A stretch of DNA of 64,000 nucleotides, from positions 1-64,000 of the forward strand of contig NZ_LWSK01000016.1 in NCBI RefSeq assembly GCF_001642955.1, given 5' to 3'. Origin of the DNA: Rubripirellula obstinata. Lineage in GTDB: Bacteria > Planctomycetota > Planctomycetia > Pirellulales > Pirellulaceae. Under the pieces are notes generated by a model. It was not told the origin of the DNA. It saw only the letters and a program-made list of their open reading frames with translations, and ran no database searches. The position numbers and the translations under genes are program-made. Shown piece after piece: positions 1,973 to 24,761 of the stretch. Numbering within the stretch: the first letter of the stretch is position 1; each line of letters begins with the position of its first letter.

Positions 1973-1999
1973 TCCGAAAGTCCCGGCGACTTACGCTAC
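1973..1999. repeat. family A repeat, half copy
   Basis: Only the right arm (CCGAAAGTC-GGCGACTT-CGCTAC) is present. It overlaps the end of the MFS gene, whose TAG stop (complement of 1996-1998) is formed by the repeat. Confidence 0.7.
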
Positions 2000-3354
2000 G
2001 GGGATTCTTCGGCGCTGGCGATAATCGGGACCGTGACGCTGCCCGCGCCCGGGCGGACGGAGAGGATTCGCATGCGGATGGTTTTGAGTGATCCCTTGGG
2101 TAGCACGACCCCCGCAAGCAGACCCAAGCAAAGCAGCCGACCAACCGATGAGGTTCCGAATAGCCAGTAATACGTTCGTGATTCACATCCCATCGTTGCG
2201 AGCATCGCGGCACCGGTCAGAGCTCCCAAGCAAACCGCGAGCGTGTTGGCGAAGTTGTAGTACGTCAACAATCGTGTGCGTTGGTTCGCAGGAAGCGTTT
2301 CAAAGAACATCAGGAAGAAACCAAGTTCATAGGCCGCCCAAGCGATACCGCTTAGGATTTGAATGGCGAACAACCAATAGAGGTTCGTCGAAACGATCCA
2401 TAACGCCGCCAACGGAACCAGTCCGATGCCACCGATCCAAAGCACCTTGGACGCGCCGGATCGTTCGGCGATGCGTCCCCAAAACGCTAGCGACATTACT
2501 TTGCTAAGAAACGCGACTGCGACCAAACTGACATAGATCCCATACCCAAACTGCAAATGACCCAGCATATAGGGAACGAAGTAGGGTCCGCTGAGCTGGA
2601 TGAAGACCTGCATTGCGACCAAATAGGCCAGCAATCGCATCGCAGAATGGTTGTCCGCTGAAACGCACTCTGATTCACCTTTGATTGCCGATTGCATTGC
2701 GTGGTGTTCCGTTTTCGGTTCTCGCGTTCGGTGCAAGAATCCGGCGGATACCAATCGTAAGCCTGCGGCGACGCAAAACAACGCCGCGAACCCAGTCAAA
2801 GCGATGCCTTCCTGGGAAGCCCACTGCAAGACCAACCCGGCGACCATCAGGGATGCAAACGTGCAGGTTTGTTGCAATCGCGAACGTTTGGAAAAGAATC
2901 GTGCTCGATGTTGCGACGGCACGATTTGTTCCATCCAAGTATTCCAAGCCGGCCCGGTCGAAAGTCCGGCGGCCCAGTAAACCGAGGCGATGATCATCAT
3001 CATCGAAAGTGTTAGCGTTTCATGCCATGCGGCAAGCGCCAGCGGCAAAAACGCGAGCGCCTGCAAAGACGCGCCTAGTACGATCCAGCGACGGTATCCG
3101 CCGATTCGCTTGATCGCGTACGGCGAACCCAATTGGATGACGCCGCCAACCAGCAAGGGAATACTGGCGACTAATCCGGCCGCGGTTTCCCCAAGCCCAA
3201 CGGCCAACGCAAACGCGGGAAAGTACGTTTCGCCACAACCGACCATCCCACCAAAACAGGCGGCGTCGCCCATGCTGCGACTGAGGTTCGGATCGGACGC
3301 TCCGCCTGGTCGATCGTTGGAAAGTTCACGGGCGGTCAGCATCCGGTCCATCAA
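1996..3354 (-). CDS. MFS transporter
   Basis: 452 aa with about 12 hydrophobic segments. A basic loop follows the second segment (IKRIGGYRRW), the position of the loop 2-3 signature of the major facilitator superfamily, and a long hydrophilic central loop sits near residues 215-235. It is probably an inner-membrane transporter of unknown substrate. It is the last gene of the minus-strand run that holds the amidoligase and peptidases, so import or export of their substrate or product is a reasonable inference. The stop codon is supplied by the half copy of repeat family A. Two ATG codons start the frame (3354, 3351). Confidence 0.82.
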   Translation of the reverse strand: MMDRMLTARELSNDRPGGASDPNLSRSMGDAACFGGMVGCGETYFPAFALAVGLGETAAGLVASIPLLVGGVIQLGSPYAIKRIGGYRRWIVLGASLQALAFLPLALAAWHETLTLSMMMIIASVYWAAGLSTGPAWNTWMEQIVPSQHRARFFSKRSRLQQTCTFASLMVAGLVLQWASQEGIALTGFAALFCVAAGLRLVSAGFLHRTREPKTEHHAMQSAIKGESECVSADNHSAMRLLAYLVAMQVFIQLSGPYFVPYMLGHLQFGYGIYVSLVAVAFLSKVMSLAFWGRIAERSGASKVLWIGGIGLVPLAALWIVSTNLYWLFAIQILSGIAWAAYELGFFLMFFETLPANQRTRLLTYYNFANTLAVCLGALTGAAMLATMGCESRTYYWLFGTSSVGRLLCLGLLAGVVLPKGSLKTIRMRILSVRPGAGSVTVPIIASAEESP

Positions 3355-3370
3355 AGCGATTGAGTTTTGA

Positions 3371-3447
3371 GTAGCGGAACTCGCGTAGAGTTTCGGCGGG
3401 CTTGGGAGGTTTTGGGGAGAGCCGAAAGTCTTGGCGACTTCCGCTAC
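3371..3447. repeat. family A inverted repeat
   Basis: Left arm GTAGCGGAACTCGCGTAGAG, about 25-base loop, right arm CCGAAAGTCTTGGCGACTT then CCGCTAC. It fills the gap between the MFS and amidohydrolase genes. Its CTA (3444-3446) is the stop codon of the amidohydrolase on the minus strand. Confidence 0.85.
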
Positions 3448-4139
3448 AAATGAGGGATCGTTTCCAGCAACGCTTTTACAACTTTTCGTTGGGAATCAAC
3501 AGATCGTTTCCAGTAGCGGTGATTGATTTCCACCTCGATGCCAAGGTAACCCGTCTCTGGAAATTTTCGACGCAGATGTGTTGTGAAACCGTCGTCGGTT
3601 CCCGCGTAGGGTTCGTTGGCGACCACTCGTGTTCGTGGATGTTGATCATTGATCCTTTGACGCCAAGCTTCACAAAACGATTCTTCCGAAAATCGTTCCG
3701 GATCAAAAAGCAGGCCGACGTCGATCGGTCGCCATTTGCCCCGGAATCGGGGCGTAAAAGTATGGATAGAAAGATGGATCACTCGGCGATTCGTCGCAAT
3801 TCGCTCACTCAACGCCTGCTGCACGCGATCGCGATACGGAAAATAATGATTCTGCAACAAGTCGGTTTTCGCCTTTTCGGAAAGTGTTGAAGTGAACCGT
3901 GAATACAACTCGGGGTTGTCGAGCGAACGATTCAAATCGACCAGCAGACGCGTGGTTTCACAACAGATTCGCTGCGTCTTTAAGGCATCGGAAAATTGGA
4001 ATGCGGCGTCGAGAGCTCCCGGGTCATAGCCGCGATGGCTTCTCAATGCTTTGGCGGCACCGGCAGTGGCAAAAAGCGAGTGGTACTCGGCGGGAACCCG
4101 GTCGCCACCATGTTCGCAGGTAATTAGGAATTCGGTCAT
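3444..4139 (-). CDS. N-formylglutamate amidohydrolase family protein
   Basis: 231 aa, the usual length for PF05013. Visible motifs: CEHGGDRVP at residues 8-16, RGYDPGA near 37-43, SIHTF near 124, and GYLGIEVEINHRY near the C-terminus, matching the zinc-ligand and substrate-binding positions of the family. Classical members cleave N-formyl-L-glutamate to formate and glutamate in histidine degradation (HutG type). No hut genes are present here. With GCS2, ATP-grasp and peptidase genes on the same strand, hydrolysis of another N-acyl glutamate or related amide is more likely. The TAG stop lies inside repeat A. Confidence 0.85.
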   Translation of the reverse strand: MTEFLITCEHGGDRVPAEYHSLFATAGAAKALRSHRGYDPGALDAAFQFSDALKTQRICCETTRLLVDLNRSLDNPELYSRFTSTLSEKAKTDLLQNHYFPYRDRVQQALSERIATNRRVIHLSIHTFTPRFRGKWRPIDVGLLFDPERFSEESFCEAWRQRINDQHPRTRVVANEPYAGTDDGFTTHLRRKFPETGYLGIEVEINHRYWKRSVDSQRKVVKALLETIPHL

Positions 4140-4181
4140 GACTTAAATCGAACGCAGCGTAAATCGAACGTAGCGTAAATC

Positions 4182-5414
4182 CTAAACCTGGAACGGTTCC
4201 CAAGTATCCAAACAATCGGCAATCTGGTCGTAAACACTATGCAACTCTTCGTGATCGAACTTCTCACCCAACGAAACGCGAATCCTTGTCGCCAATGTTC
4301 CTTGATCCATGATGATTTCGATTGGTGCATAGAGGTTCGATAGCGTGGTGTCATCGCGCCGCGCTCGCCCCAGCAAGACTTCCCATAAATCCCGAGTCGT
4401 GCAAGATGATTTCTGAACATTGAATAAGGCGAGAAACTTTGCATCGTCGATCACGGCATGTTCGGCACTGACCGTGACGCGGTCCAAGATCGCTCGCAGG
4501 GATTCGGTCGACGCCGCTTTCTGCTGTTGGGTTGTTGACCACTGTTCGGCCACCAATGCTTTGGCCACCGCGATCACGGCGGCGCAGATCGCAACATCCG
4601 CACCGGGGTATTCTTGTACGTCCATGACGCGAAGTTCAATCGAACCACGGTCGAAGCGAGCAATTGCCCCGCGAGCGTTCAGGAAGTCGACTTCCAGGAC
4701 TCCGGCGGGATCATGCGGAGCCACGTCTGCCGCGATCTTGTCGAAAACCTCGCGTCGGTAATTGGCTTCGTCATAAAGTGGTTCAGGAATCAATCGCCCG
4801 GTTAGTGATGGGAGCACTCGGCAATGGTCGGCGTAGTACTGCATCCGCGTGTCGAGTCTGCCGGTATAGCATCCGTGGACGATCGGTGAACTGGCGGTCA
4901 GGGCGGGCACGATTGGCAGCACCAAACGAATGGCGGCATGCAACCGAGCGAACTCGTCATCGCCGTCGAAGGGTAGGTTCAGGTGAACGCTTTGCACGTT
5001 GGACCAACCATGCGACTTGCAATCGAAGATCCGGTCATATGCTTGGTAGATTTCGTGGTTTTCGTGCGGCCAGAGAATCGTTTCGATCGCGGGGTTCATC
5101 CACGGGTGCATCGCGGTGGGCAGCAGCCGAACGTTCAGTCGATCCAGGGCTGGACGCAAATCGCGGATTGCAGTTTCAAACTGCGATGGCAGTGATCGAA
5201 TCTTGGTCGCGGGCAGTGTGGTTTTGAGTTCGATGACGTGCAGAGCGAGTTCGTTGGACCACGTGATCGGTCCAGACTCATAATCGCTGACCGTCTTGCC
5301 GCCCGCCAGAATTGCGAGCAGGGTGTCGGCGACCGGTCGCACGTCCAGCGTGTTGCGGTCGACGAGCATGTATTCCATTTCGATGCCAAAAGCGTCGAAG
5401 AGTTTGAGTGTCAT
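4182..5414 (-). CDS. GCS2-family carboxylate-amine ligase (YbdK-like)
   Basis: 410 aa. Glutamine-synthetase-fold signature FGIEMEYMLVD at residues 6-16, then GWSNVQSVHLNLPF near 163-176 and SSPIVHG near 206-212, all typical of glutamate-cysteine ligase family 2 (PF04107). These enzymes use ATP to join a carboxylate, often glutamate, to an amine. The ATG at 5414 is chosen because the frame upstream is made only of repeat A sequence, which would add a spurious ATSATIKDSP extension. It lies between an RLAN/RimK-like ligase and an N-formylglutamate amidohydrolase. Two amidoligases in one run suggests a multi-step amide or peptide product rather than glutathione. Confidence 0.85.
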   Translation of the reverse strand: MTLKLFDAFGIEMEYMLVDRNTLDVRPVADTLLAILAGGKTVSDYESGPITWSNELALHVIELKTTLPATKIRSLPSQFETAIRDLRPALDRLNVRLLPTAMHPWMNPAIETILWPHENHEIYQAYDRIFDCKSHGWSNVQSVHLNLPFDGDDEFARLHAAIRLVLPIVPALTASSPIVHGCYTGRLDTRMQYYADHCRVLPSLTGRLIPEPLYDEANYRREVFDKIAADVAPHDPAGVLEVDFLNARGAIARFDRGSIELRVMDVQEYPGADVAICAAVIAVAKALVAEQWSTTQQQKAASTESLRAILDRVTVSAEHAVIDDAKFLALFNVQKSSCTTRDLWEVLLGRARRDDTTLSNLYAPIEIIMDQGTLATRIRVSLGEKFDHEELHSVYDQIADCLDTWEPFQV

Positions 5415-5430
5415 GGGAGAATCTTTGATG

Positions 5431-5507
5431 GTAGCGGAAGTCGCCAAGACTTTCGGCAGGTTTTGGGGATAGGGGGCGTGGCCGAAAGTCTTGGCGACTT
5501 CCGCTAC
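5431..5507. repeat. family A inverted repeat
   Basis: Near-perfect arms GTAGCGGAAGTCGCCAAGAC and its complement separated by a G-rich loop of about 25 bases. It lies between the GCS2 and ATP-grasp genes, ending 46 bases downstream of the ATP-grasp stop. Confidence 0.9.
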
Positions 5508-5552
5508 GGTTGGGATGGTGGTTTGGGGCTAAGAGGTCGCTATAAACAGCTC

Positions 5553-7016
5553 CTAAGACTTTGTGGCTTCGATGCGTCTTGCGAACGATTCCATGATGCG
5601 GCGATACAGTTCCTCTCGCAGCACCGCATCTTCGATGCCGGAATCCAAGTTCGGGTTGTCGTTGACTTCGATGACGTAAAAATGTCCGTCGACTTCTTTC
5701 ACATCGACACCGTACAAACCGTTGCCGATCAAGTTCGCGGCTTTGACGGCGACCGCGACGGCTTTTCGCGGAGCGGTTTCGACGGGAAAGGTTTCGCACT
5801 TACCGAATTTTGGTTTTGACTTAACGTCCGTGCCGTGCTTGGCGATCTGCCAATGGCCGCGCGCCATGTGGTACTTGCACGCAAACATCGCTCTTCCGTC
5901 CATCACGCCAATTCGCCAATCAAAATCGGTTCGCATGTAGGCTTGTGCGATCACGAGTTCGGAATCCTCAAAGAACTCAGCCAGCCGAGCTTGCAATTCG
6001 TCTGCATTCGCGGCTTTGACCACGCCCTGCGAAAACGCACTATCGGGACGCTTTAAGACACACGGGTAAGAAAGCGTTTTTGCAAGCTCATCGGCGTTGC
6101 GACGGTGAACGATCGTCGTCTGCGGCGTCGGCACCTTGGCACGCGTCATCAATTCGGCCAGGTAGACCTTGTTGGTACACCGCAGGATCGACACCGGGTC
6201 GTCGATCACCACCATCCCCGCGGCCTCGGCGCGGCGTGCGATCCGATAGGTGTGATGATTCACAGCGGTCGTTTCGCGAATGAACAAAGCATCGAACTCA
6301 AGCAGTCGGCCTGAATCAGACCGAGTGATCAGTTCGGCGTTGATACCTTCGGCTGCGGCCGCCTTCACCAACTTTTTCAGCGCCGCTTCGTCTGACGGTG
6401 CCAGATCGCCTTCGTCGGGATTGTGCAAGATCGCCATGTCGTACCGCATCGACTTGCGTTTGGGGCGACTGGAAACTCCGCGTGCGAAGTGTTTTGCCGC
6501 GGCCTCGGCAACAAAGTCGCGGTGGTTCAGCGGCACCGCACCCAGCGATATCGCGGACGCACGACGAAGTCGCCACTTGCTGCGGCGAGCGAATTTAAAC
6601 TGCAACAGCGGTGCCTGAAAAAGGTTGAACAGTTCGCGAGCGAGCCGGTCGTATTTCTTGGCGAGGTTCTGGCCGAAATAAACGCTCAACACGAATTCGT
6701 CGCCGGTAAGTCCTTTGAAGGAGTTTTCGATCAGCTCTTCCAGATGTTGCGGGATCAACCGGACGGCAGACGATCCGGACAGATCTTGAATGGTGGTCAC
6801 GTCCGGCATGGGACGTTCCCCACGAGCTTCGGCCAATAACGAAACGTAGTAGCCCATGCTTTGGTAAGCATACGAACGGCTGAGGTTGAAGACTCGCGTG
6901 CGGCCCCGTGATTTTGGGTCGGGCGAAGCAAGGTAGTCGCGTGGGTCAACGGTTTGCACGCCGTCGAATTCGCCAAGCCAATCGTCACCGGATTCAGCAA
7001 CAAGGATGGTTTTCAT
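5553..7016 (-). CDS. RimK-like ATP-grasp ligase with RLAN N-terminal domain
   Basis: 487 aa. The N-terminal half carries NLSRSYAYQSMGYYVSLLAE near residues 48-67, the mark of the RLAN domain found fused to RimK-like ATP-grasps. The C-terminal half (about 210-480) is an ATP-grasp: PCVLKRPDSAFSQGV for nucleotide binding and VIEVNDNPNLDSGIED for Mg2+. RimK relatives ligate amino acids, often glutamate, through an acyl phosphate. ATG 7016 is preceded by AAAAGGAA at good spacing; the extra upstream frame is repeat A. Placement between GCS2 and a C39-like peptidase supports a role in building a small peptide or tagging a protein. The substrate is unknown. Confidence 0.88.
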   Translation of the reverse strand: MKTILVAESGDDWLGEFDGVQTVDPRDYLASPDPKSRGRTRVFNLSRSYAYQSMGYYVSLLAEARGERPMPDVTTIQDLSGSSAVRLIPQHLEELIENSFKGLTGDEFVLSVYFGQNLAKKYDRLARELFNLFQAPLLQFKFARRSKWRLRRASAISLGAVPLNHRDFVAEAAAKHFARGVSSRPKRKSMRYDMAILHNPDEGDLAPSDEAALKKLVKAAAAEGINAELITRSDSGRLLEFDALFIRETTAVNHHTYRIARRAEAAGMVVIDDPVSILRCTNKVYLAELMTRAKVPTPQTTIVHRRNADELAKTLSYPCVLKRPDSAFSQGVVKAANADELQARLAEFFEDSELVIAQAYMRTDFDWRIGVMDGRAMFACKYHMARGHWQIAKHGTDVKSKPKFGKCETFPVETAPRKAVAVAVKAANLIGNGLYGVDVKEVDGHFYVIEVNDNPNLDSGIEDAVLREELYRRIMESFARRIEATKS

Positions 7017-7028
7017 AAATTCCTTTTC

Positions 7029-7107
7029 GTAGCGGAAGTCGCCAAGACTTTCGGCGGTGCTGGGGACGACGTGACTGAACACCGAAAGTCTTGGCGACTT
7101 CCGCTAT
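7029..7107. repeat. family A inverted repeat (loop type 2)
   Basis: Same arms as other family A copies. Its loop GGCGGTGCTGGGGACGACGT shared with the copy at 7867 shows that these two are recent duplicates. CTA at 7104-7106 is the stop codon of the C39-like peptidase gene. Confidence 0.9.
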
Positions 7108-7850
7108 GGTTTTGGTTGTGATTTTGGAAAGACGGTCAATAAATTCGCATCAAACGTGACGATACCCAGCAGGATCGCCGACGTCACTCGCGACAGCGGC
7201 GCGACATACTTGTTGGTCGGTGCCATGGGGTTGGGGTGCAGCGGATCGGCAATCAAGACGGTTCGTTTGACGGGATCGAATCCGTGCAGCACGACAAAGT
7301 GCCCGGTCGGGTCGCCACCGATGTCGTCTTCGTCGCCCATGGGTGTCTCACGAGACTCTTGATACAGGTACGTCGAACTCAAACCGCACAGGATCGGCGT
7401 CTCGCGAGCCATCATCGACACGAGAAATAATTCATCGAGCGGTTGCATTTGTACTCGACCGCCGAGCGAAAGAAACTGCAGGTACGACTTCGTCGCCGAC
7501 GCTAATCTGGCAACGTCAAAATCGCCGCGATGCTGTTTCGCATCGAGCTGCTTGGTCAATCTTTCCGTCAACCACTCGCCCGACTTCATTTCACCTCGCG
7601 CGTCAAACCATGTTGGGTCAAACAACTGCAGGTTGTAGGTGACGATTTCTGCAGCGAATCCACGATTCAGCGCGTCGCATGCCAGGTCGACGGCCAGAGT
7701 TCCGCCGCTATTGAGTTCGCTGATTTTACCGAGCAAGTCATTTAAATCGACCGGCTTCTGCCAATAATCATAGACAGCCGCTAAACACGTTGGTCCGCAC
7801 GCCGTGTCACTTGGTTGTGATTGAATTTCAAGAATAAGTTCGTGCGACAA
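7104..7850 (-). CDS. C39-like papain-fold cysteine peptidase
   Basis: 248 aa from a TTG start at 7850; longer readings (to 7883) translate repeat A and are rejected. DTACGPTCLAAVYDYW (residues about 14-29) supplies the catalytic Cys and the oxyanion region. GHFVVLHGFD near 200-209 gives the His, followed by IADPLHPN with the Asp. This is the peptidase C39-like (Peptidase_C39_2) pattern. No transporter ATPase domain is attached, so it is a stand-alone peptidase or an amide-transferring enzyme. It sits between the M42-like peptidase and the RLAN/RimK ligase. Its stop codon is created by repeat A. Confidence 0.75.
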   Translation of the reverse strand: MSHELILEIQSQPSDTACGPTCLAAVYDYWQKPVDLNDLLGKISELNSGGTLAVDLACDALNRGFAAEIVTYNLQLFDPTWFDARGEMKSGEWLTERLTKQLDAKQHRGDFDVARLASATKSYLQFLSLGGRVQMQPLDELFLVSMMARETPILCGLSSTYLYQESRETPMGDEDDIGGDPTGHFVVLHGFDPVKRTVLIADPLHPNPMAPTNKYVAPLSRVTSAILLGIVTFDANLLTVFPKSQPKP

Positions 7851-7866
7851 TGGATGTTTCTTCAGG

Positions 7867-7945
7867 GTAGCGGAAGTCGCCAAGACTTTTGGCGGTGCTG
7901 GGGACGACGTGACTGAACACCGAAAATCTTGGCGACTTCCGCTAC
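7867..7945. repeat. family A inverted repeat (loop type 2)
   Basis: Near-identical to the copy at 7029-7107 including the loop. The two copies bracket the C39-like gene in the same orientation. Confidence 0.9.
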
Positions 7946-7955
7946 GCGCGAACCC

Positions 7956-9005
7956 TCACAATTCACACCGATCGCATAGCAGCCGCAGCATTGCGTCCAC
8001 GCTCAACAACGACGCCGTTTCCAAATGCGTGTGATACGACGACGTGGGCAATTGCAATGTTGTTCCGGAAACCTGTCCCGACGTCGCCGCGATCAGTCGG
8101 CCTAGTTCGGTGCGTCCGATCGAACTCTGTTTCTCTCGCGTGCGGTTCAGCGCCATGATGTAATCGTCTTTGAAGCAATAGGAAATCCCCAGTCGATCGC
8201 AAGACTTCCGCAGTCGCTCGGTCGATTTCGCATCAAACGTTGCGTTAGAATCCGCGTGCCGCAGCACCACTTCTTGTTGGTCGCAATCGTCCACCGTGGC
8301 AAACGGGCTGGTGTCCATGACGATCAACTGGTCTGTCGTCGTATCGTGTCGCTGAAACCACTCGGCCACAAACCGCCAGCTACGCCCTGATTCTTCACCC
8401 GCCGAAAAGAACGCGGTTCCGGAAAAGCCGCGGCGGATCAGTTCGATCAACATCGCAACACTGACGACGTTGTCCAACTGAGCGGAAATGTAACCGTCGT
8501 TTTCCTGCAAGCGGTCGATGAAGGACACCGGCGTGCCGGGTTGCAAGAAATCGAGTCCGTCAATTTCAAAGATCAGGTTCTTTCGTCGCGGACAGATGTA
8601 CGATTCGGTAATCGTACCTTGCCCTAAGTACGAACCGGCGTAGGGCGCGTGAGCCTGAACCCGTTGGCCGCGAAACCGTCCCGCGATCAGTTCCATAAAC
8701 TGCTCGGAAATCGAATCACCGTTCAGCTCGCCTCGGTTGCCCGCAATGAACGCGGCGTACTGGAACTCGTGTGGCCCGGTGCATAGCAGCCCGTGCCGAT
8801 CGACGTGAGCGGAGAGATAGACGCTCTCTGGTTCGTCGCCTTCGACGACCAACAGCCCATGATACCGAGTGATCTTTACCGGGTACTCTTCCAGTTCCCG
8901 ACGAAGCACTCGAAAGAATGCGTCCTCCATGCCGACGACCGACGGTTCGCGAACCAAGTATCGAAGCAGGTGCAGAAATTCGTGCGAAGCGTAGTGAAGT
9001 TTCAT
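7956..9005 (-). CDS. M42/M28-like zinc aminopeptidase
   Basis: 349 aa. Metal-ligand pattern of the M20/M28/M42 clan: VYLSAHVDRHGL (His and Asp) near residue 67, the Asp in SAQLDNVVS near 173, GEESGRS (general base and ligand Glu) near 205, VMDTSPFA with the next Asp, and a final His in SSYHTHLE near 327. It is expected to remove N-terminal residues from short peptides in the cytoplasm, as no signal peptide is seen. ATG 9005 is used; the extension to 9161 covers repeat A. It is first in the minus-strand run and may trim or recycle the product of the two amidoligases. Confidence 0.8.
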   Translation of the reverse strand: MKLHYASHEFLHLLRYLVREPSVVGMEDAFFRVLRRELEEYPVKITRYHGLLVVEGDEPESVYLSAHVDRHGLLCTGPHEFQYAAFIAGNRGELNGDSISEQFMELIAGRFRGQRVQAHAPYAGSYLGQGTITESYICPRRKNLIFEIDGLDFLQPGTPVSFIDRLQENDGYISAQLDNVVSVAMLIELIRRGFSGTAFFSAGEESGRSWRFVAEWFQRHDTTTDQLIVMDTSPFATVDDCDQQEVVLRHADSNATFDAKSTERLRKSCDRLGISYCFKDDYIMALNRTREKQSSIGRTELGRLIAATSGQVSGTTLQLPTSSYHTHLETASLLSVDAMLRLLCDRCEL

Positions 9006-9015
9006 GGCGTGGGTC

Positions 9016-9083
9016 GTAGCGGAACTCGCCAAGAGTTTCGGTGATCGTGGACAGTGGTCGAAAGTCTTGGCGGCTTCCGCTAC
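9016..9083. repeat. family A inverted repeat
   Basis: Arms GTAGCGGAACTCGCCAAGAG and CGAAAGTCTTGGCGGCTTCC with a short loop, just upstream of the peptidase start. A more decayed half copy follows at about 9236-9266, so the spacer 9006-9284 is mostly repeat. Confidence 0.85.
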
Positions 9084-9284
9084 GAGTGCGGTTGCAGTTT
9101 TCGTGCCAGAATGACGGACAGGCAAAACGGCATTGAACACGATGGCAGCGGGTGGAACCATAGAAAAGAAGTTGCCGGAGCTGCAAAAGTTTTTTCCAAT
9201 TCAAGCGAACCCAATTCAAGCGAATCATCCGCCTCCAGGCCGAACGTCTTGGCGAATTTCGCTACGGGCGACGGTGATTTTCGA

Positions 9285-12449: not shown

Positions 12450-12501
12450 TTGAGTTGAGGTGTATTGTTCTATCACCCTGAAACCATTTGCCGCTCTCTC
12501 C

Positions 12502-13860
12502 ATGCTGTCTGCTTCAAGTCTTTCCGCCTCTCGTTTTCAAGCCGAATCCGTCTCCAGTTCGCCAACTAAAAACTTCGCCACGAATCGCCCTCAACTGGCT
12601 TCTAAGCGGTTTGTCGTGGCATCTTTGATTTTGGCTTTCGTTGCGATTTGTTTCAGCAGCTATTTGGCTTATGTCGGACTGACCGAATCGAAGGTGGTGG
12701 GATGCGACGGAGGAATTTTTAATTGCGACCATGTCTTGAATAGTCGGTGGTCACAGGTGCTGGGCATTCCGGTCAGTATTCTCGCGATTGGTTTGTACGC
12801 CGTCGTCATCGGTGCCGTCTGTCAATTGCGTCACGGAAAGGGATCAGCACGCCGCTTTGCTTGGTTGGCACTATCGGTACTTTCGGTCGCGGCAGCAACG
12901 ACGGCGTTGTGGTTCATTTCGTTGCAAGTCTTTTCGATCGGTCACTTCTGTCCGTATTGCTTGGTGGTTCACGGTTGCGGGTTGCTGTTGGCCGCCGGGG
13001 TCTGGTGGAACCATCCGGAAAAACGTTCTTCCATGGTCAGAAATCTGACGGCGGGCGTCGCACTCTCGGGCAGTCTGATTGCGATTCAGGCGTTTGGCCC
13101 GGTACCGGATACGTTTGAGATCCAAACGAATGATCCGTCGATGTTGCCGATGGAGTTTGATCCGTTGGATGATAACGCGTTGTTTGAATCACCGCTCGGG
13201 ATGTCTGCGTTGTCGTGGTTGTCGCTGGTGAGTGTTGTGATGGCGGACGAAGCGGTCGCAACCGACCAGCCTGCACTCCCGCCGCGTTTAGTTCCCGTCT
13301 CGGGCGGCAGGCGACAACTTGACGCTCGCAAGTGGCCGGTGTGGGGCAACGTCGATGCAAAATACTTGATTGTGGAGATGTTCGACTACACGTGCGATCA
13401 TTGTCGCAACACGCACAACTCAATTAAAGCCGCCGCACCGTTGTTGGGCAATGATTTTGCCGTGTTGACGTTGCCTGTTCCCCTGCATCAGAGTTGCAAC
13501 GACGCGGCGAAAAACAACAGTCCCGAAGGAGCCGACGCTTGCGAAATTGCCCGGCTAGCGATTTCGGTTTGGTTGGTCGATGCCAGCAAGTTCACGGCGT
13601 ATCACGATTGGTTGTTCGATCAGAAACGTTCGGCGGTTGAAGCACGCATGTACGCCGAAACAATTGTCGATCGCCAGGCACTTGCGGCTGAATTGGCGAA
13701 GGGAACCGCGTCGAAGTACGTTGCCAAGAACGTTTTGTTGTACAAAGACGCCGGTGCGGGCACGGTGCCCAAAATCTCGTTCCCCCGAACCACCGTCGTC
13801 GGCGAAATCGGTTCGGCGAACAGTGTCGCTGATCTCGTTCGACAGCAGTTTGGTCAGTAA
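12502..13860 (+). CDS. VKOR domain fused to DsbA/thioredoxin-fold domain
   Basis: 452 aa. About five membrane segments form a vitamin K epoxide reductase (VKOR) domain (residues 35-190): the loop cysteines in KVVGCDGGIFNC and the active-site CPYC in FSIGHFCPYCLV. A variable linker follows, then a thioredoxin-fold domain (about 265-450) with the motif CDHC in FDYTCDHCRNTH. This is the known bacterial arrangement in which VKOR passes electrons from a secreted thiol oxidase to quinone, replacing DsbB, to make disulfides in the periplasm. A candidate sigma-54 promoter lies upstream. The start is uncertain because no Shine-Dalgarno is visible. Confidence 0.87.
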   Translation: MLSASSLSASRFQAESVSSSPTKNFATNRPQLASKRFVVASLILAFVAICFSSYLAYVGLTESKVVGCDGGIFNCDHVLNSRWSQVLGIPVSILAIGLYAVVIGAVCQLRHGKGSARRFAWLALSVLSVAAATTALWFISLQVFSIGHFCPYCLVVHGCGLLLAAGVWWNHPEKRSSMVRNLTAGVALSGSLIAIQAFGPVPDTFEIQTNDPSMLPMEFDPLDDNALFESPLGMSALSWLSLVSVVMADEAVATDQPALPPRLVPVSGGRRQLDARKWPVWGNVDAKYLIVEMFDYTCDHCRNTHNSIKAAAPLLGNDFAVLTLPVPLHQSCNDAAKNNSPEGADACEIARLAISVWLVDASKFTAYHDWLFDQKRSAVEARMYAETIVDRQALAAELAKGTASKYVAKNVLLYKDAGAGTVPKISFPRTTVVGEIGSANSVADLVRQQFGQ

Positions 13861-16882: not shown

Positions 16883-17185
16883 GACAAGGATCTTTCAAGG
16901 TGCCGATGTTGGTATCGAAAGAACGGAACGATAAGGCATGACGCCATCAGTCGGTAGCGGAAGCCGGCAACTCGCATTGGAAAAAACTTTTCCACTTCCG
17001 CGAGAACTTTTTCCCCACGGAGCGTTCGGTTCTGCAAATTCCTCGCAATCCTCGAAGCATTCGGCTGATGTTGGGCATTCGCATCGGTTTGGGCCCGGCA
17101 TTTGCCTCTCATGCCCTACCGCACCCGGTCGACACACCGACTCGGCCTACCGGAACACACTGCATCCCCAATCAAAGTTGTTGAA

Positions 17186-18403
17186 ATGAAACTTGGCATC
17201 CTCTCCACATCCCCTCGCTGCTACAGCACCCGACGTCTGATGGATGCCGCCAAGTCGCGCGGCCACGATCCATTGGTCATCAACACACTGAAGTGTTCGA
17301 TTGACCTGCAATCGGGCAAGCCGGACCTGTACTACAAAGGCAAGCCGCTGGACGATTATGATGCCGTGATCCCGCGCATTGGCGCTAGCATCACCTACTT
17401 TGGCACCGCCGTCGTTCGTCAACTCGAACAGATGAGCGTCTTCGTTGCCAACACCTCGGGTGGAATTTCCAACAGCCGCGACAAGTTGCGCAGCATGCAG
17501 ATCCTCAGTCGTCACCACATCGGGATGCCGCGGACGACCTTCGTTCGCGACAAAGCCGATGTGATTCCGGCGATTCAACGAATCGGTGGTGCGCCCGTCA
17601 TCATCAAGTTGCTCGAAGGCACTCAGGGCGTCGGCGTGATTCTGGCGGATAGCATCAAGATTGCCGAAGCGATTATCGAGACCTTGCAAACGGCAAAGCA
17701 GAATGTCTTGGTCCAAGGGTTCGTCTCGGAAAGCAAGGGCCGTGACATCCGAGCGTTCGTGATCGGCGACCAAGTCGTCGGTGCGATGCGGCGAGTCGCT
17801 CAGGGTGACGAGTTCCGCAGCAATGTCCATCGCGGTGGCAGGGTTGAAAAAGTTGAGCTGGATGACCAATACCGCGAGACTGCAATTCGTGCGGCGCAGA
17901 TCATGGGTTTGCGAGTCGCAGGTGTTGACATGCTTGAAGGCAAGAATGGGCCGCAGGTCATGGAGGTCAATAGCTCGCCAGGTCTGGAAGGCATTGAGGC
18001 GGCAACGCAAAGTGACATCGCCGGTGCGATCGTCGACTACTGCGCCGCTCACACGGATTTCCCCGAAATGGATGTCCGGCAAAAGCTGACCGTCAGCAAA
18101 GGCTATACGGTTTCTGAACTTGTTATCCCTGAAGGATCGAAGTTCGTTGGCATGACGATCACCGACGCATCGTTCGCCGATCAGGATATCAATGTCTTGA
18201 CGCTCTACCGAGGCAAAACCGTCATTCCCAACCCCAAAGTCTCACGGGTCCTCGAATCGGGCGACCGCTTGCTTTGCTTTGGCAAGCAGGAAGCGATGAA
18301 GTCGATGGTACCCAAGAAAACCCGCAAGAAACGTGCTCCCGAACCGCAACACTTGGAACCTGAAATGGTCGCTCACGCCAACGCGCAACCGGAGTACTCA
18401 TGA
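17186..18403 (+). CDS. RimK-family ATP-grasp ligase with C-terminal TrkA-C (RCK_C) domain
   Basis: 405 aa. Residues 1-300 match RimK: MKLGILSTSPRCYSTRRLMD start, DKLRSMQILSRHHIGMPRT, ATP-binding IIKLLEGTQGVGVIL, and the metal site VMEVNSSPGLEGIE. RimK adds glutamates to ribosomal protein S6 C-terminus or makes poly-glutamate. Unlike E. coli RimK it has a tail of about 90 residues, with YTVSELVIPEGSKFVGMTI resembling the TrkA-C/RCK_C ligand-binding domain, followed by a basic stretch KKTRKKRAPE. The stop overlaps the start of the AstE/AspA-like gene (ATGA), so the two are translationally coupled. ATG 17186 chosen by homology; the upstream frame is not conserved-looking. Confidence 0.92.
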   Translation: MKLGILSTSPRCYSTRRLMDAAKSRGHDPLVINTLKCSIDLQSGKPDLYYKGKPLDDYDAVIPRIGASITYFGTAVVRQLEQMSVFVANTSGGISNSRDKLRSMQILSRHHIGMPRTTFVRDKADVIPAIQRIGGAPVIIKLLEGTQGVGVILADSIKIAEAIIETLQTAKQNVLVQGFVSESKGRDIRAFVIGDQVVGAMRRVAQGDEFRSNVHRGGRVEKVELDDQYRETAIRAAQIMGLRVAGVDMLEGKNGPQVMEVNSSPGLEGIEAATQSDIAGAIVDYCAAHTDFPEMDVRQKLTVSKGYTVSELVIPEGSKFVGMTITDASFADQDINVLTLYRGKTVIPNPKVSRVLESGDRLLCFGKQEAMKSMVPKKTRKKRAPEPQHLEPEMVAHANAQPEYS

Positions 18404-19470
18404 ACGCAAAATCTGAAAACTGGTTCGGACATGATGTCAAACCCGGCGAAGCGATCAGCACCGAATTGGTGATCTCTGAAAGCTACAGTAGTCGCGATGT
18501 CGCCATCCCAATTCGCGTGCGCCGTGGACTGAATCCTGGACCAACCGTGTTCGTAACCGCTGCTTTGCACGGAGATGAACTCAACGGCACCGGCGCGATT
18601 CGCAGCATGCTGGGCGATCCCTCCTGGGAACTCGCGTCTGGAACACTGCTGATGGTACCGGTGCTAAACGTTCTGGGATTTGAACGTCACTCGCGTTACT
18701 TACCCGACCGCCGCGACCTGAACCGATGCTTCCCCGGCAACACAACTGGCAGCATGGCATCACGGTTAGCCAAGGTCATGTTTGATTCGATCGTTCGCAG
18801 GTGCGATTTTGGGATCGACTTGCACACCGCAGCAGTCCGCCGAACGAACTTTCCCAACGCACGAGCCGATCTCGACAACCCAACTTGTTTGAAGCTGGCC
18901 GAGGCGTTTGGTAGCGGCATCATCCTGCACGGCAAAGGCCCCAAGGGATCATTCCGCCGCGAGGCAACTGCGGCGGGATGTCCAACGATCGTGGTCGAAG
19001 GCGGCGAAGTTTGGAAGGTCGAATCGTCGGTGGCCGATTGCATGCTGCGAGGCGTCTTCAACATTTTAAAAACGCTGAAGATGATGGATGGCCCGCCGGA
19101 CATTCCCGAGCATCAAGCGATCATCAAGCAAACCAAATGGATACGCGCCGAACGTGGTGGTTTCATGTCGATGCATGTTGCCCCCGGTGATAGCGTTGTC
19201 AAAGGACAAGCGCTCGCATCGAACAGCAATCTTTTAACCGAAGATCAAAACCGACTGGAAGCCCCGTTTTCAGGAATCGTCATCGGCATGACCACCCTGC
19301 CCGCGGTTCAACCTGGTGAGCCGGTCGTCCACATCGGTCGCCTAGCAAACCCCAAATCGGCCCTACGTCACGACCAGCATGTGGCCAGCGACGACGTTCA
19401 ACGAACGGCACTCCAACACCTAGCCACCAACGTGCAGGTAACCGAGCCCGAAGAACTTCCGTCGTCGTAA
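18400..19470 (+). CDS. Succinylglutamate desuccinylase/aspartoacylase-family zinc hydrolase
   Basis: 356 aa. AstE/AspA family (PF04952): zinc ligands in ALHGDELNGTGAI (H and E, near residues 52-64) and DLHTA near 137, with RRDLNRCFPG between them for substrate binding. The C-terminal third (about 245-330) looks like a lipoyl/biotinyl-type beta hammerhead, with GGFMSMHVAPGDSVVKGQ. The family removes acyl groups from N-acyl amino acids or trims C-terminal residues. Overlap with the rimK-like gene (ATGA) suggests that this enzyme reverses or edits the glutamate ligation. Confidence 0.88.
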   Translation: MNAKSENWFGHDVKPGEAISTELVISESYSSRDVAIPIRVRRGLNPGPTVFVTAALHGDELNGTGAIRSMLGDPSWELASGTLLMVPVLNVLGFERHSRYLPDRRDLNRCFPGNTTGSMASRLAKVMFDSIVRRCDFGIDLHTAAVRRTNFPNARADLDNPTCLKLAEAFGSGIILHGKGPKGSFRREATAAGCPTIVVEGGEVWKVESSVADCMLRGVFNILKTLKMMDGPPDIPEHQAIIKQTKWIRAERGGFMSMHVAPGDSVVKGQALASNSNLLTEDQNRLEAPFSGIVIGMTTLPAVQPGEPVVHIGRLANPKSALRHDQHVASDDVQRTALQHLATNVQVTEPEELPSS

Positions 19471-20504: not shown

Positions 20505-21749
20505 ATGACTCTAAAAACATCGATAGACAACAGCGCAACCGATTCCGGTTGCTCTCCGACCGATTCTGAAACCCTTCGTAAGGCGGGCATCTCGACCACT
20601 TCTGTCCACGCTGGCGAAGTGAGGCAAAAACACGATGGAGCCGTTGCTGCTCCGATTGTGACCTCTTCGACCTTTGCGTTTGAAAACACCGAAGCGCTGC
20701 TGCGGTTCGTTGAAGGCGATGAGGACCGGCCCGAATACGGTCGCTACGGAACGCCCAACGAGAAAAGCGTCGAAGCCAAACTGGCGGCACTCGACGGGGC
20801 CGAAGAGGCGATTTTGTACAGCAGCGGAATGGCGGCGATCGTCGGCCTGCTGATGAGCAAGTTGAATGCTGGCGACGAGATCGTCTTCTTCGATCAGTGC
20901 TACCACCGCAGCCGCGAATTCTGTTCGAAGCACCTTTCTCGATTTGGTGTTGTCACTCGCCAAGTCAAAACCGGTGACTTCGCCGCGATGGAATCGGCGA
21001 TCAATTCCAACACCCGAATGCTGGTCAGCGAATCGCCAACCAATCCACACTTGACCGCAGTCGATCTGGAAAAGTTTGTTGCGCTTGGAAAGGCCCACGA
21101 AGTTGAAACGCTGATCGACGCAACCTTGGCGACTCCGTTCAACATCAAACCGATCGAGTTCGGCGTTGACTATGTTCTGCATTCCGCGACGAAGTACTTG
21201 GGCGGTCACAATGATTTGTTGGCCGGTTCAATCTGCGGTTCACGAGAACAACTGGAACCCGTCCGCCGGCTGCGTGGAATTCTGGGCAGCATTAATTCAT
21301 CGCACAACTTGTATTTGCTTGAACGAGGATTGAAAACGTTCGCCCTTCGGATGCAGCGTCACAATGAAAACGGTCAAGCGATCGCAGAGTTCCTGGAAGC
21401 TCATCCTCGCGTCGAAACGGTTTACTATCCGGGATTGAAATCACATCCGACTCACCAAATTGCCGCAGCCCAAATGAACGGTTTTGGCGGACTGATTTCC
21501 TTCACCGTCAAAGATGCTGACTGGAAAGAAACTTCGCGGATTGTCGATGCGGCAACGATTCCACGCATCGCACCCAGCTTGGGTGGTGTAGAATCGCTGA
21601 TCGAACAGCCGTTGGTGATGAGCTATTTCAATTACTCACCCGAAGAACGAGAAACCTTCGGCATCTATGACAATATGATTCGCATGGCGTGCGGTATCGA
21701 AAACACCGATGACCTGATCGCCGATCTGAAGCAGGCACTTGATGCGTGA
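20505..21749 (+). CDS. Cys/Met metabolism PLP-dependent enzyme (cystathionine gamma-synthase/lyase-like)
   Basis: 414 aa. Fold-type I PLP enzyme of the Cys/Met family: YSSGMAAIVGL near residue 105 for phosphate binding and the PLP lysine in HSATKYLGGHND near residue 224. The family holds cystathionine gamma-synthase, cystathionine lyases, methionine gamma-lyase and O-acetylhomoserine sulfhydrylase, which cannot be separated here. An unusual N-terminal extension of about 30 polar residues precedes the usual VHAGE start. It overlaps a paralogue by 8 bases, so the pair is one transcription unit and probably performs consecutive steps such as transsulfuration. Confidence 0.9.
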   Translation: MTLKTSIDNSATDSGCSPTDSETLRKAGISTTSVHAGEVRQKHDGAVAAPIVTSSTFAFENTEALLRFVEGDEDRPEYGRYGTPNEKSVEAKLAALDGAEEAILYSSGMAAIVGLLMSKLNAGDEIVFFDQCYHRSREFCSKHLSRFGVVTRQVKTGDFAAMESAINSNTRMLVSESPTNPHLTAVDLEKFVALGKAHEVETLIDATLATPFNIKPIEFGVDYVLHSATKYLGGHNDLLAGSICGSREQLEPVRRLRGILGSINSSHNLYLLERGLKTFALRMQRHNENGQAIAEFLEAHPRVETVYYPGLKSHPTHQIAAAQMNGFGGLISFTVKDADWKETSRIVDAATIPRIAPSLGGVESLIEQPLVMSYFNYSPEERETFGIYDNMIRMACGIENTDDLIADLKQALDA

Positions 21750-22899
21750 GAAGTCTTTCCGAACACGTGCGATCCACGTCGGCAATGAAGTCGATGCGGC
21801 AACCGGCGCGGTAGTTCCGCCGATTCATTTGGCCAGCACGTTCCAGCAACCCGGCGCAGGTGAATGGGGCGAATTTGATTACTCGCGAAGCGGCAATCCA
21901 ACGCGAACTAATTTGCAGACGACGCTGACTTCGTTAGAAGGCGGCTGTGGATCGCTGGCGTTTTCTTCCGGCATGGCAGCCATCCACTGCGTCACCATGA
22001 TGCTGAAAACCGGTGACCATGTGATCGCCGGATGCGACCTTTACGGGGGGGCCTATCGATTGTTGCACAAGATTTGTGACCGCTCTGGCGTAACAGTCAC
22101 GCTGGTTGACATGACCGATTTAGCGGCAATTGAATCGGCGATTACCGACAACACAAAACTGATTTGGTTTGAGTCGATCGGTAACCCACGTTTGTCGATC
22201 CCTGATTTGAAAGCGATCGCCAGCCTTGCGAAGTCAAAAGACATTCGCACCGGTGTGGACAACACGTTTGCAACACCGGCACTGTTGCGACCGCTGGAAC
22301 TGGGCATCGACATTGTGATGCACTCGGCGACGAAGTACTTGGGCGGACACAGCGATTGTATGGGCGGAACGCTTTCGGTTGCCGATCAAGCGTTGTTTGA
22401 CGAACTGTATTTTATCCAAAACGCAACCGGTGCGGTTTTGGATCCGCTGAGCTGTTTTTTGGTCACGCGTGGATTGAAGACATTGGACTTGCGAGTTCGC
22501 GAACAATCCAAGACTGCATTGGAATTGTCGCAATGGTTGCAGCAGCACTCGTGTGTCAAATCGGTTTTGTACCCTGGGCTGGCAAGTCATCCGCAGCATG
22601 AACTCGCCCGGCAAACGCTGCAGGGCGGATTTGGTGCGATGGTGACCTTTGAACTTGACGGCACCATTGCACAAACAGCCAATACCTGTGAATCAACCAA
22701 GCTGTTTCGTCTGGCGGTCAGTTTGGGTGCAGTCGAATCGCTGATCGAGCAACCGGCGACGATGTCCCACGCCAGCTACGATGCCGCCGATCGAGCCCGA
22801 TTCGGAATCACCGATGGCCTGATCCGGTTGTCAGTCGGTTTGGAATCGATGGAAGACTTAAAAGCTGATTTAGATCAGGCGTTTTCCGCGTCTAGCTGA
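21742..22899 (+). CDS. Second Cys/Met metabolism PLP-dependent enzyme
   Basis: 385 aa, the typical family length. RAIHVGNEVD start, YSRSGNPTRTNL near residue 52, FSSGMAAIHCV and the PLP lysine in HSATKYLGGHSDCMGG near residue 197. YSRSGNPT is shared by cystathionine gamma-synthase and gamma-lyase. The ATG at 21742 lies inside the end of the upstream paralogue, whose TGA is at 21747-21749. Having two paralogues in tandem suggests synthase/lyase division of labour in homocysteine/cysteine exchange; which is which is not decided by sequence alone. Confidence 0.9.
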   Translation: MREKSFRTRAIHVGNEVDAATGAVVPPIHLASTFQQPGAGEWGEFDYSRSGNPTRTNLQTTLTSLEGGCGSLAFSSGMAAIHCVTMMLKTGDHVIAGCDLYGGAYRLLHKICDRSGVTVTLVDMTDLAAIESAITDNTKLIWFESIGNPRLSIPDLKAIASLAKSKDIRTGVDNTFATPALLRPLELGIDIVMHSATKYLGGHSDCMGGTLSVADQALFDELYFIQNATGAVLDPLSCFLVTRGLKTLDLRVREQSKTALELSQWLQQHSCVKSVLYPGLASHPQHELARQTLQGGFGAMVTFELDGTIAQTANTCESTKLFRLAVSLGAVESLIEQPATMSHASYDAADRARFGITDGLIRLSVGLESMEDLKADLDQAFSASS

Positions 22900-23413: not shown

Positions 23414-23542
23414 TACTCGCAGCGACTTGCGAGTTGATCCGGTACGATAGTGGTGAGCGTTGGCGGGCATCGGTTTCGATGGGATACTGCCCACTCAACT
23501 TTTTTGCACTGGCGGGGTGCCTTTCAATCATGGAGTTTGAAC

Positions 23543-24583: not shown

Positions 24584-24625
24584 CGGCTAACGAATTGCCA
24601 CGAAACAAGTTCCCAATTTCCCAAG

Positions 24626-24683
24626 CCGAACGCGTAAGCGAGGGATATTGTTTGACGCGGAATTCCCTCGCTTACGCGTTCGG
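24626..24683. repeat. Inverted repeat CGAACGC...GAGGGA (family J)
   Basis: Second copy of the 20234 repeat. It sits between the mfnD-like and mfnF-like genes and is nested in the GAAACAAGTTCC/GAAGTTATTCC arms also seen at 23341. Confidence 0.85.
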
Positions 24684-24761
24684 GTTGAGATTTGGGTGGA
24701 ATCTAATCTCGTGAAGTTATTCCAGGACAATTCCTAAGTACGCGCTGAAGAACCAACCCAC

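Follow-up and report, generated by a model that had tools for sequence, protein, structure and literature searches.

A conserved four-gene amidoligase and hydrolase operon of planctomycetes and its GNAT-type sister system

Predicted amidoligase operons, in which RLAN-ATP-grasp proteins, COOH-NH2 ligases, GNAT domains and papain-like domains occur together, were reportedly described by Iyer et al. in Mol Biosyst in 2009. The locus considered here, a run of genes for a C39-like hydrolase, an RLAN-ATP-grasp ligase, a GCS2-type ligase and an FGase-type amidohydrolase in the planctomycete Rubripirellula obstinata, draws on the same superfamilies and on the same principle, a peptide being extended or capped by linked ligases. 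It lies in positions 1 to 64,000 of contig NZ_LWSK01000016.1 (host genome size 6.58 Mb), and this whole stretch of 64,000 nucleotides is called the window below. In the parts of two papers that were consulted, linked ATP-grasp, COOH-NH2 and GNAT ligases are described as carrying out successive ligations or capping (PMC4431377), and DUF3335 peptidases as often fused to GNAT domains, citing Iyer 2009 (PMC10318531). Operons that combine a ligase with a peptidase, like the GNAT-C39 fusion, have already been published. No title or abstract opening in the open-licence literature searched dealt with the function of RLAN proteins, and no product was given there.

Four further systems resemble parts of this locus. 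Glutathione synthesis uses a ligase of the glutamate-cysteine ligase (GCS) superfamily and then an ATP-grasp ligase, GshB; glutamylation of S6 pairs the ATP-grasp ligase RimK with an opposing hydrolase, RimB; pupylation (PafA/Dop/Pup) relies on a GCS2-superfamily ligase; and the osmolyte N-acetylglutaminylglutamine amide (NAGGN) is produced by a pathway comprising an asparagine synthase homologue, Ngg and an aminopeptidase. Ngg is made up of GNAT plus ATP-grasp, and the glutamyl aminopeptidase of the NAGGN operon belongs to the M42 family. According to the part of the source consulted, Ngg both N-acetylates glutamine and forms the peptide bond (PMC8070244), which provides a precedent for a cap combined with ATP-grasp ligation.

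As the original prediction had claimed, six open reading frames (ORFs) lie head to tail on one strand of the window, the minus strand, at 9161-1996, and Pfam gives the same family names, with the matches of all six proteins exceeding the gathering scores. From first to last, the genes are:

7956..9161, minus strand: M42-like peptidase (Pfam M42, 33.4 bits), which adjoins the core here and is outside the conserved unit
7104..7883, minus strand: C39-like (papain-fold) cysteine hydrolase or transferase, core gene 1 (Pfam C39_2, 42.7 bits)
5553..7016, minus strand: RLAN-ATP-grasp amide ligase, core gene 2 (Pfam RLAN and RimK)
4182..5447, minus strand: GCS2-type carboxylate-amine ligase, core gene 3 (Pfam GCS2, 80.3 bits)
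3444..4139, minus strand: FGase-type (N-formylglutamate amidohydrolase-like) hydrolase, core gene 4 (Pfam FGase, 81 bits)
1996..3354, minus strand: MFS transporter, a lineage-specific accessory (Pfam MFS_1, 59.4 bits)

An internal Met at 9005 in the M42 ORF agrees with the end of the run given in the original prediction. The RLAN-ATP-grasp ORF is open to 7082, and the alignment places the start common to its relatives at the Met at 7016.

The conserved unit consists of the middle four genes: the C39-like hydrolase, the RLAN-ATP-grasp ligase, the GCS2 ligase and the FGase-type amidohydrolase. A scan of named genomes with the window RLAN protein yielded 18 loci, nine in planctomycetes and nine in Oxalobacteraceae or an unclassified proteobacterial metagenome-assembled genome. 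In these, C39 stands before RLAN in 17 of 18 (L and G numbers are our handles for loci and genomes; the sequence of the remaining one, L038, begins just ahead of RLAN), GCS2 follows RLAN in all 18, and FGase is present in 16, with L044 ending inside GCS2 and L047 lacking FGase; in L045, FGase is found 2.5 kb further on. MFS occurs in three of the 18 and M42 in none.

The survey was extended with the RLAN model PF14401 to 294 planctomycete, 398 Pseudomonadota and 14 control genomes, of which 75 (some with weak, partial matches), 72 and none, respectively, contained a match. Together with the window and the 18 named loci, 60 planctomycete and 60 Pseudomonadota loci gave a set of 139, in which domains were counted up to 6 kb from RLAN, using profiles built in this analysis. 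The planctomycete loci represent 60 of the 74 other RLAN genomes, those left out being G108, G124, G149, G234 and ten f12 planctomycetes (G009, G060, G097, G113, G174, G187, G210, G232, G271, G279), and the Pseudomonadota loci represent 60 of 75 RLAN places, with 15 left out, one of which (G294) is locus L041. GCS2 was found at 69 of the 139 loci, GNAT without GCS2 at 67, and neither at three (L076, L124, and L096, where RLAN lies close to the end of a 6.9 kb contig). When RLAN was clustered at 75% identity, the GCS2 type comprised 46 sequence groups and the GNAT type 39.

Among the 69 GCS2-type loci, C39 was present in 64, FGase in 51, MFS in five, GNAT in one and M42 in one, the window itself. 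The genes nearly abut, with a median of 6 nt from the C39 stop to the start of the RLAN domain (64 loci), 27 nt from the RLAN stop to the start of the GCS2 domain (69 loci, including two in which RLAN and GCS2 share a single open frame, L107 and L108), and 24 nt from the GCS2 stop to the start of the FGase domain (51 loci). In G124, G149 and G234, identical ORF lengths were reported for the RLAN and GCS2 domains. For the middle four genes, though not for M42, an order this constant is far from what chance would give, and the expectation that two ligases, a cysteine peptidase-like enzyme and FGase belong together is upheld by spacing, locus counts and co-occurrence, which mark them as a tight and widely conserved operon.

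Co-occurrence was evaluated across the 294 planctomycete genomes with three profiles, GCS2-A, C39-A and FGase-A, built from proteins of the window and of named relatives; one Legionella protein also went into the FGase and GCS2 profiles. Cut-offs were E <=1e-30 for GCS2-A, E <=1e-15 for C39-A, and at least 170 bits, or more loosely 1e-25, for FGase-A; the p-values for co-occurrence ignore relatedness, and the genomes are not independent evidence. GCS2-A was detected in 57 genomes, 54 of which also contain RLAN (14.5 expected; the exceptions are G004, G191 and G273), and C39-A in 51 genomes, 50 of them with RLAN (13.0 expected; exception G104). All 43 genomes with FGase-A at 170 bits or more contain GCS2-A (8.3 expected), including G121, G125 and G274, in which FGase and the core are on different contigs and yet co-occur. 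At the looser cut-off, 49 genomes have FGase-A, five of them without GCS2-A or RLAN. The 21 of the 75 RLAN genomes that lack GCS2-A are GNAT-type, have a weak, partial RLAN match, or have incomplete contigs.

Several irregular copies were encountered. The ten f12 genomes have weak RLAN matches, several of them split in two, in ORFs of 217-359 aa, the usual RLAN proteins having 500 aa, and these are possibly RLAN without ATP-grasp, or degenerate copies. G124 has a second C39 copy (G124:C456:3906-5299) with one in-frame TAG and FGase directly after it, separate from the RLAN/GCS2 contig. In G247 (G247:C1:1499033-1500257), the GCS2 gene reads as two abutting pieces, from a frameshift or an assembly error. 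The window's own genome holds another GCS2 match (183.1 bits, contig C278) and three GSH-S_ATP matches, one of which is a RimK-like gene at 17 kb of the window.

All four core proteins retain residues of catalytic type, with the roles ascribed to them in their families. Conservation was read from alignments from which rows covering less than 60% of a profile had been removed, with RLAN numbered from the 7082 start. In the C39-like protein, Cys29, His195 and Asp213 are invariant in 64 of 64 rows, which come from GCS2-type loci. Its AlphaFold2 (AF2) model has a mean predicted local distance difference test score (pLDDT) of 86.4, and the top Foldseek match is the pseudomurein endoisopeptidase PeiR (E 1.5e-05). 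PCAT/ComA C39 peptidases are also matched, as are phytochelatin synthase Alr0975 and, at a weak level, CtaG; phytochelatin synthase and CtaG act as acyl transferases. The second core protein belongs to the RLAN family by its Pfam scores, RLAN (159.1 bits, cut-off 25) lying N-terminal to a RimK-like ATP-grasp (36.3 bits, cut-off 21), and K305, K344, D460, E472 and N474 of the ATP-grasp are invariant in 70 of 70 rows. Its AF2 model (mean pLDDT 77.7, predicted template modelling score 0.64) matches Ddl, LysX, ArgX and RimK with E values of 1.9e-16 to 1.5e-14 among the 50 matches listed, and template modelling (TM) scores on the target reach 0.83, with RimK, LysX and ArgX at 0.75-0.83. Because the targets among the matches listed have at most 317 residues, the RLAN part has no named fold. 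GCS2 has E23, E25, E66, E73, H155 and R259 invariant in 69 of 69 rows, and E271 and R273 in 68 of 68; FGase has E9, H10, H35, D39, H122, H126, D146, E202 and E204 invariant in 50 of 50. The closest solved relative of FGase is the uncharacterised Atu2144 (111.7 bits with the FGase profile); 2q7s, which is named an N-formylglutamate amidohydrolase, scores 21 bits.

RLAN ligases divide into two kinds that scarcely overlap, one partnered by GCS2 and often FGase as well, the other by a GNAT acetyltransferase. The only one of the 136 loci assigned to either kind that has both is L088, where the GNAT match is partial (30.7 bits) and on the opposite strand. Of the 67 GNAT-type loci, 47 have another C39 type, none has FGase and one has M42, and at 47 of the 67 GNAT and a C39-like domain share one frame. 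The C39-like part of the two fusion proteins that were put to Pfam (L073, L106) is DUF3335. Over 156 columns, hhalign finds the GCS2-type and GNAT-linked C39 profiles homologous (probability 96.7%, E 4e-10), and their Cys, His and Asp positions align. GNAT shares its frame with RLAN itself in L079 (682 aa) and L080 (660 aa), and these two stand among GCS2-type rows in the best RLAN tree, which has two GCS2/GNAT changes. The approximately unbiased test does not reject a tree with all GNAT-type rows in one clade (p-AU 0.43), and we therefore make no claim of repeated swapping. We read GCS2 and GNAT as alternative capping enzymes on one ligase scaffold, leading to a capped peptide-like metabolite. 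In the literature consulted, of which parts were seen, we did not find the near-exclusive split or the tie of FGase to GCS2 stated. DUF2817 genes, which we take to be of a metallo-carboxypeptidase-like family, lie a few kb from RLAN in 10 GNAT-type loci (4 groups; e.g., L149:11085-12215) and were clustered in no GCS2-type locus, and DUF2817 might fill the part of FGase in GNAT loci.

The two kinds are distributed differently between phyla. All but one of the 60 sampled Pseudomonadota RLAN places are GNAT-type, the other being of neither type, and none is GCS2-type; the nine proteobacterial GCS2-type loci, which include Oxalobacteraceae, were found via the window protein and do not measure the frequency of that type in Pseudomonadota. 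These nine rows (seven for FGase) form one supported group in all four gene trees, with SH-aLRT (Shimodaira-Hasegawa-like approximate likelihood ratio test) values of 100 for RLAN, 99 for GCS2, 98 for FGase and 100 for C39. In the RLAN tree, the only one with other-type rows for rooting, the group is nested in planctomycete GCS2-type rows (a 67-row group at 98, intervening forks 80-86; the root is not firmly placed, and there are branches flagged as long). This nesting suggests that the GCS2-type cassette probably reached proteobacteria by one transfer from planctomycetes. On a plasmid of Legionella adelaidensis, RimK-family, glutamate-cysteine ligase family and N-formylglutamate amidohydrolase genes follow in the same order; RLAN is at the start of the record, and no C39 gene is annotated at the record's other end. 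Plasmids of Azospirillum brasilense and Tistrella mobilis have the GNAT type.

No recurring neighbour that was put to Pfam holds a fixed place in GCS2 loci as a fifth pathway gene would. Clustering of 1188 neighbouring ORFs gave 12 clusters present in at least four groups, and six of these were compared with Pfam. Recurring at both locus types are a sulfatase, a response regulator (14 groups) and a histidine kinase that carries a receiver (10 groups), and DUF883 (five loci) is the only family limited to GCS2 loci in at least four groups. A 436-aa family without a Pfam match lies less than 2 kb from RLAN at four GCS2 loci and one GNAT locus, on varying sides and strands (e.g., L102:11079-12386). 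Small ORFs (20-110 aa) at the 69 GCS2 loci gave none conserved in more than three sequence groups, and neither a Pup-like modifier (Pup's own motif was not searched for) nor a ribosomal, graspetide-like precursor was recognised, with the reservation that very short or fast-changing peptides could be missed. Since no small ORF extends beyond three groups and DUF883 alone is confined to GCS2 loci, ordinary metabolites would be favoured as substrates.

How does this locus compare with the described systems? Its spacing and co-occurrence link amidoligases of different folds to a peptidase, the arrangement of Iyer-type operons, and the four-gene system belongs to this known broad kind, predicted amidoligase operons, with a two-way variant structure. 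Glutathione synthesis shares the sequence of a GCS-superfamily ligase and then an ATP-grasp ligase; here, in contrast, the ATP-grasp is RimK/LysX-like and carries RLAN, GCS2 is remote from known GCS, and two hydrolases are added. The window ATP-grasp scores 33.1 and 19.2 bits (PRK05246) against glutathione synthetase models with cut-offs of 408 and 272, and the glutamate-cysteine ligase models among the matches listed are all under their cut-offs. RimK/RimB likewise combines a RimK-like ATP-grasp with an opposing hydrolase, but RimB is a retropepsin whereas the hydrolase here is a Cys enzyme, GCS2 and FGase are extra, and RimK models stay far from their thresholds (PRK10446, 36.2 bits vs. 331; TIGR00768, 72.2 vs. 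143.4). In the NAGGN pathway one enzyme, Ngg, makes both cap and peptide bond, something of which the GNAT::RLAN frames in L079 and L080 may also be capable; the window unit differs in that its ATP-grasp carries RLAN, its cap enzyme is GCS2 and M42 stands outside it. Neither an asparagine synthase homologue nor Ngg (TIGR03103) was among the matches of the six window proteins, and the L073 GNAT scores 30 bits against TIGR03103, with a cut-off of 569. By these curated cut-offs, identity with canonical glutathione synthesis, RimK modification of S6 or NAGGN synthesis is ruled out. The likeness to pupylation lies in the GCS2-superfamily ligase, and Rhodopirellula is reported to have Pup (PMC2588565, consulted in part).

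The explanation that we favour, tentatively and at somewhat less than an even chance, is that the four enzymes form a self-contained operon that builds a small capped peptide or amide and breaks it down again. The analysis shows the operon structure with its conservation and spread, the conserved catalytic-type residues, the near-exclusive use of GCS2 or GNAT, the link between FGase and GCS2, the fusions of RLAN with GCS2 and with GNAT, and the homology of the C39 types; the substrates, products, bond types and directions of the hydrolases in the scheme that follows are inferred. The GCS2 enzyme would join glutamate, by analogy via its gamma-carboxyl, to an amine-bearing partner, and RLAN-ATP-grasp, working through an acyl-phosphate like LysX/ArgX, RimK and Ddl, would add a second amino acid or amine to a carboxyl of the product, so that the order GCS2 then ATP-grasp would follow the logic of glutathione synthesis. 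The C39-like enzyme, with its full Cys-His-Asp set, may hydrolyse the ligase-made bond or transfer its acyl group, and FGase may remove the glutamyl part or recycle it. The sister system, which lacks FGase, would have its cap set by the GNAT acetyltransferase in place of GCS2. As the original prediction proposed, a small glutamate-containing compound is the best reading of the product.

Several observations weigh against this explanation. FGase is missing within 6 kb at 18 of the 69 GCS2-type loci and C39 at five. In the sister system, a stand-alone GNAT without a C39-like domain is found at 18 of the 67 loci, and GNAT is on RLAN's strand at 35 and on the opposite strand at 32, so that GNAT is not always in one operon with RLAN. 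The split follows the two main RLAN branches, and at the p-AU value given above the swap may have been a single event. The structural matches of C39 are weak, with TM on the query no higher than 0.44, the value for PeiR, among the matches listed. GCS2 is remote from every solved enzyme and from those whose specificity is known (plant glutamate-cysteine ligase, 19.6 bits; YbdK, 17.8 bits) and scores under the NCBI cut-offs, so glutamate as its substrate is assumed. The best PDB matches of RLAN-ATP-grasp include both small-molecule (Ddl) and protein-carrier (LysX, ArgX, RimK) ligases, which keeps a protein target in play.

This last point leads to protein modification, in which RLAN would add residues to a protein C-terminus as RimK does to S6, GCS2 or GNAT would act on the tag or at the N-terminus of the protein, and the tag would be taken off by C39 and FGase. 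The ATP-grasp part resembles RimK and LysX in sequence and RimK, LysX and ArgX in fold, the sister-system GNAT scores 84.1 bits against the model of RimI, the S18 N-acetyltransferase (cut-off 86.4), and experiments have established RimK and the protease RimB as a ligase/hydrolase pair (PMC12239564, consulted in part). We nevertheless regard protein modification as unlikely, because the small-ORF survey described above brought up no conserved modifier or target protein at the locus (with the reservation given there), and spread between phyla would be easier for enzymes of a common metabolite than for enzymes tuned to a single host protein. In the part of the source consulted, two other GCS2-superfamily families without a Pup-like neighbour were judged likelier to serve peptide-metabolite synthesis than conjugation to proteins (PMC2588565).

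A substrate cycle would dispense with a final product altogether, the pairs RLAN/C39 and GCS2/FGase reversibly conjugating a compound for storage or detoxification. Glutathionylspermidine synthetase/amidase is a model for such a reversible conjugation cycle, and an operon whose two ligases and two hydrolases all keep catalytic-type residues would suit it. FGase tracks GCS2, not RLAN, as expected if FGase reverses the GCS2 step. However, the glutamate that the FGase family releases is the amine part of an amide, and in a gamma-glutamyl bond glutamate supplies the acyl group, so a straight reversal would not be the most natural fit; FGase is also absent near the 18 GCS2 loci mentioned above. On balance we consider the cycle improbable.

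Modification of cell-envelope peptides, in which the ligases would build and the C39-like enzyme would cut an isopeptide on envelope material, draws on PeiR as top match of the C39 model and on the Ddl enzymes among the RLAN matches. These are fold-level resemblances at 13-18% identity, the recurring neighbours put to Pfam (six of the 12 clusters) included no recognisable envelope gene, and we think this role very unlikely.

The original prediction had joined all six window genes in one make-trim-export pathway, with M42 trimming and MFS exporting the product. The head-to-tail run in the window and the position of MFS elsewhere (after FGase in L031, L032 and L035, after GCS2 in L070) would suit it, and the NAGGN operon includes a glutamyl aminopeptidase gene (PMC8070244, in the part consulted). 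Linkage in other genomes speaks against it. In Rhodopirellula rubra the M42 homologue is on contig C17 and the core on C19, in the planctomycete TBK1r it is about 1.9 Mb from the core, and the two Noviherbaspirillum genomes searched had no match. MFS lies within 6 kb of RLAN at only the window and the four loci just named, in two sequence groups. Scattering of the six genes in close relatives, named in the original prediction as grounds for dropping it, is thus seen for M42 and partly for MFS, while the other four stay together. With M42 beside the core at one of 69 loci and MFS at five, a six-gene pathway with a general export step is highly improbable: M42 is largely ruled out by the linkage counts, and membership of MFS is weak.

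The surroundings of the locus contain other genes of related families. Upstream of the six genes, on the same strand, are a sigma-54 response regulator and a histidine kinase, and a scan for promoters and terminators gave no signal exceeding shuffled sequences. The nearest named-genome relatives of the window RLAN protein are in Rhodopirellula rubra (83% identity) and Aporhodopirellula aestuarii (85%). On the plus strand, a second ATP-grasp gene at 17102-19470 (RimK plus a pre-ATP-grasp domain fused to TrkA_C) overlaps an AstE/AspA (succinylglutamate desuccinylase-like) gene by a few bases, a ligase/hydrolase pair about 10 kb from the core. A third ATP-grasp (ATP-grasp_3 with preATP-grasp_3) stands beside a Hydantoinase_A gene at 23450-25772 (plus strand), and these presumably resemble the planctomycete methanofuran/tetrahydromethanopterin one-carbon (C1) genes. 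Also on the plus strand are an adjacent pair of Cys/Met metabolism pyridoxal phosphate enzymes (20505-22899) and a single protein with a VKOR domain and a weak thioredoxin-like match (12460-13860).

A wider possibility, which we put forward as speculative and rather doubtful, is that RLAN is the shared engine of widespread, reversibly capped peptide metabolites with a modular cap. In planctomycetes and a few proteobacteria the cap would be gamma-glutamyl, set by GCS2 and taken off by a dedicated FGase; in most proteobacterial loci it would be acetyl, set by GNAT fused to the homologous C39-like enzyme or to RLAN. The C39-like enzyme may work by acyl transfer, like phytochelatin synthase or CtaG, and not as a protease. 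RLAN matches are common, occurring in 75 of the 294 sampled planctomycetes and 72 of the 398 sampled Pseudomonadota, and the results turn a vague amidoligase neighbourhood into two small cassettes fit for expression and mass spectrometry.

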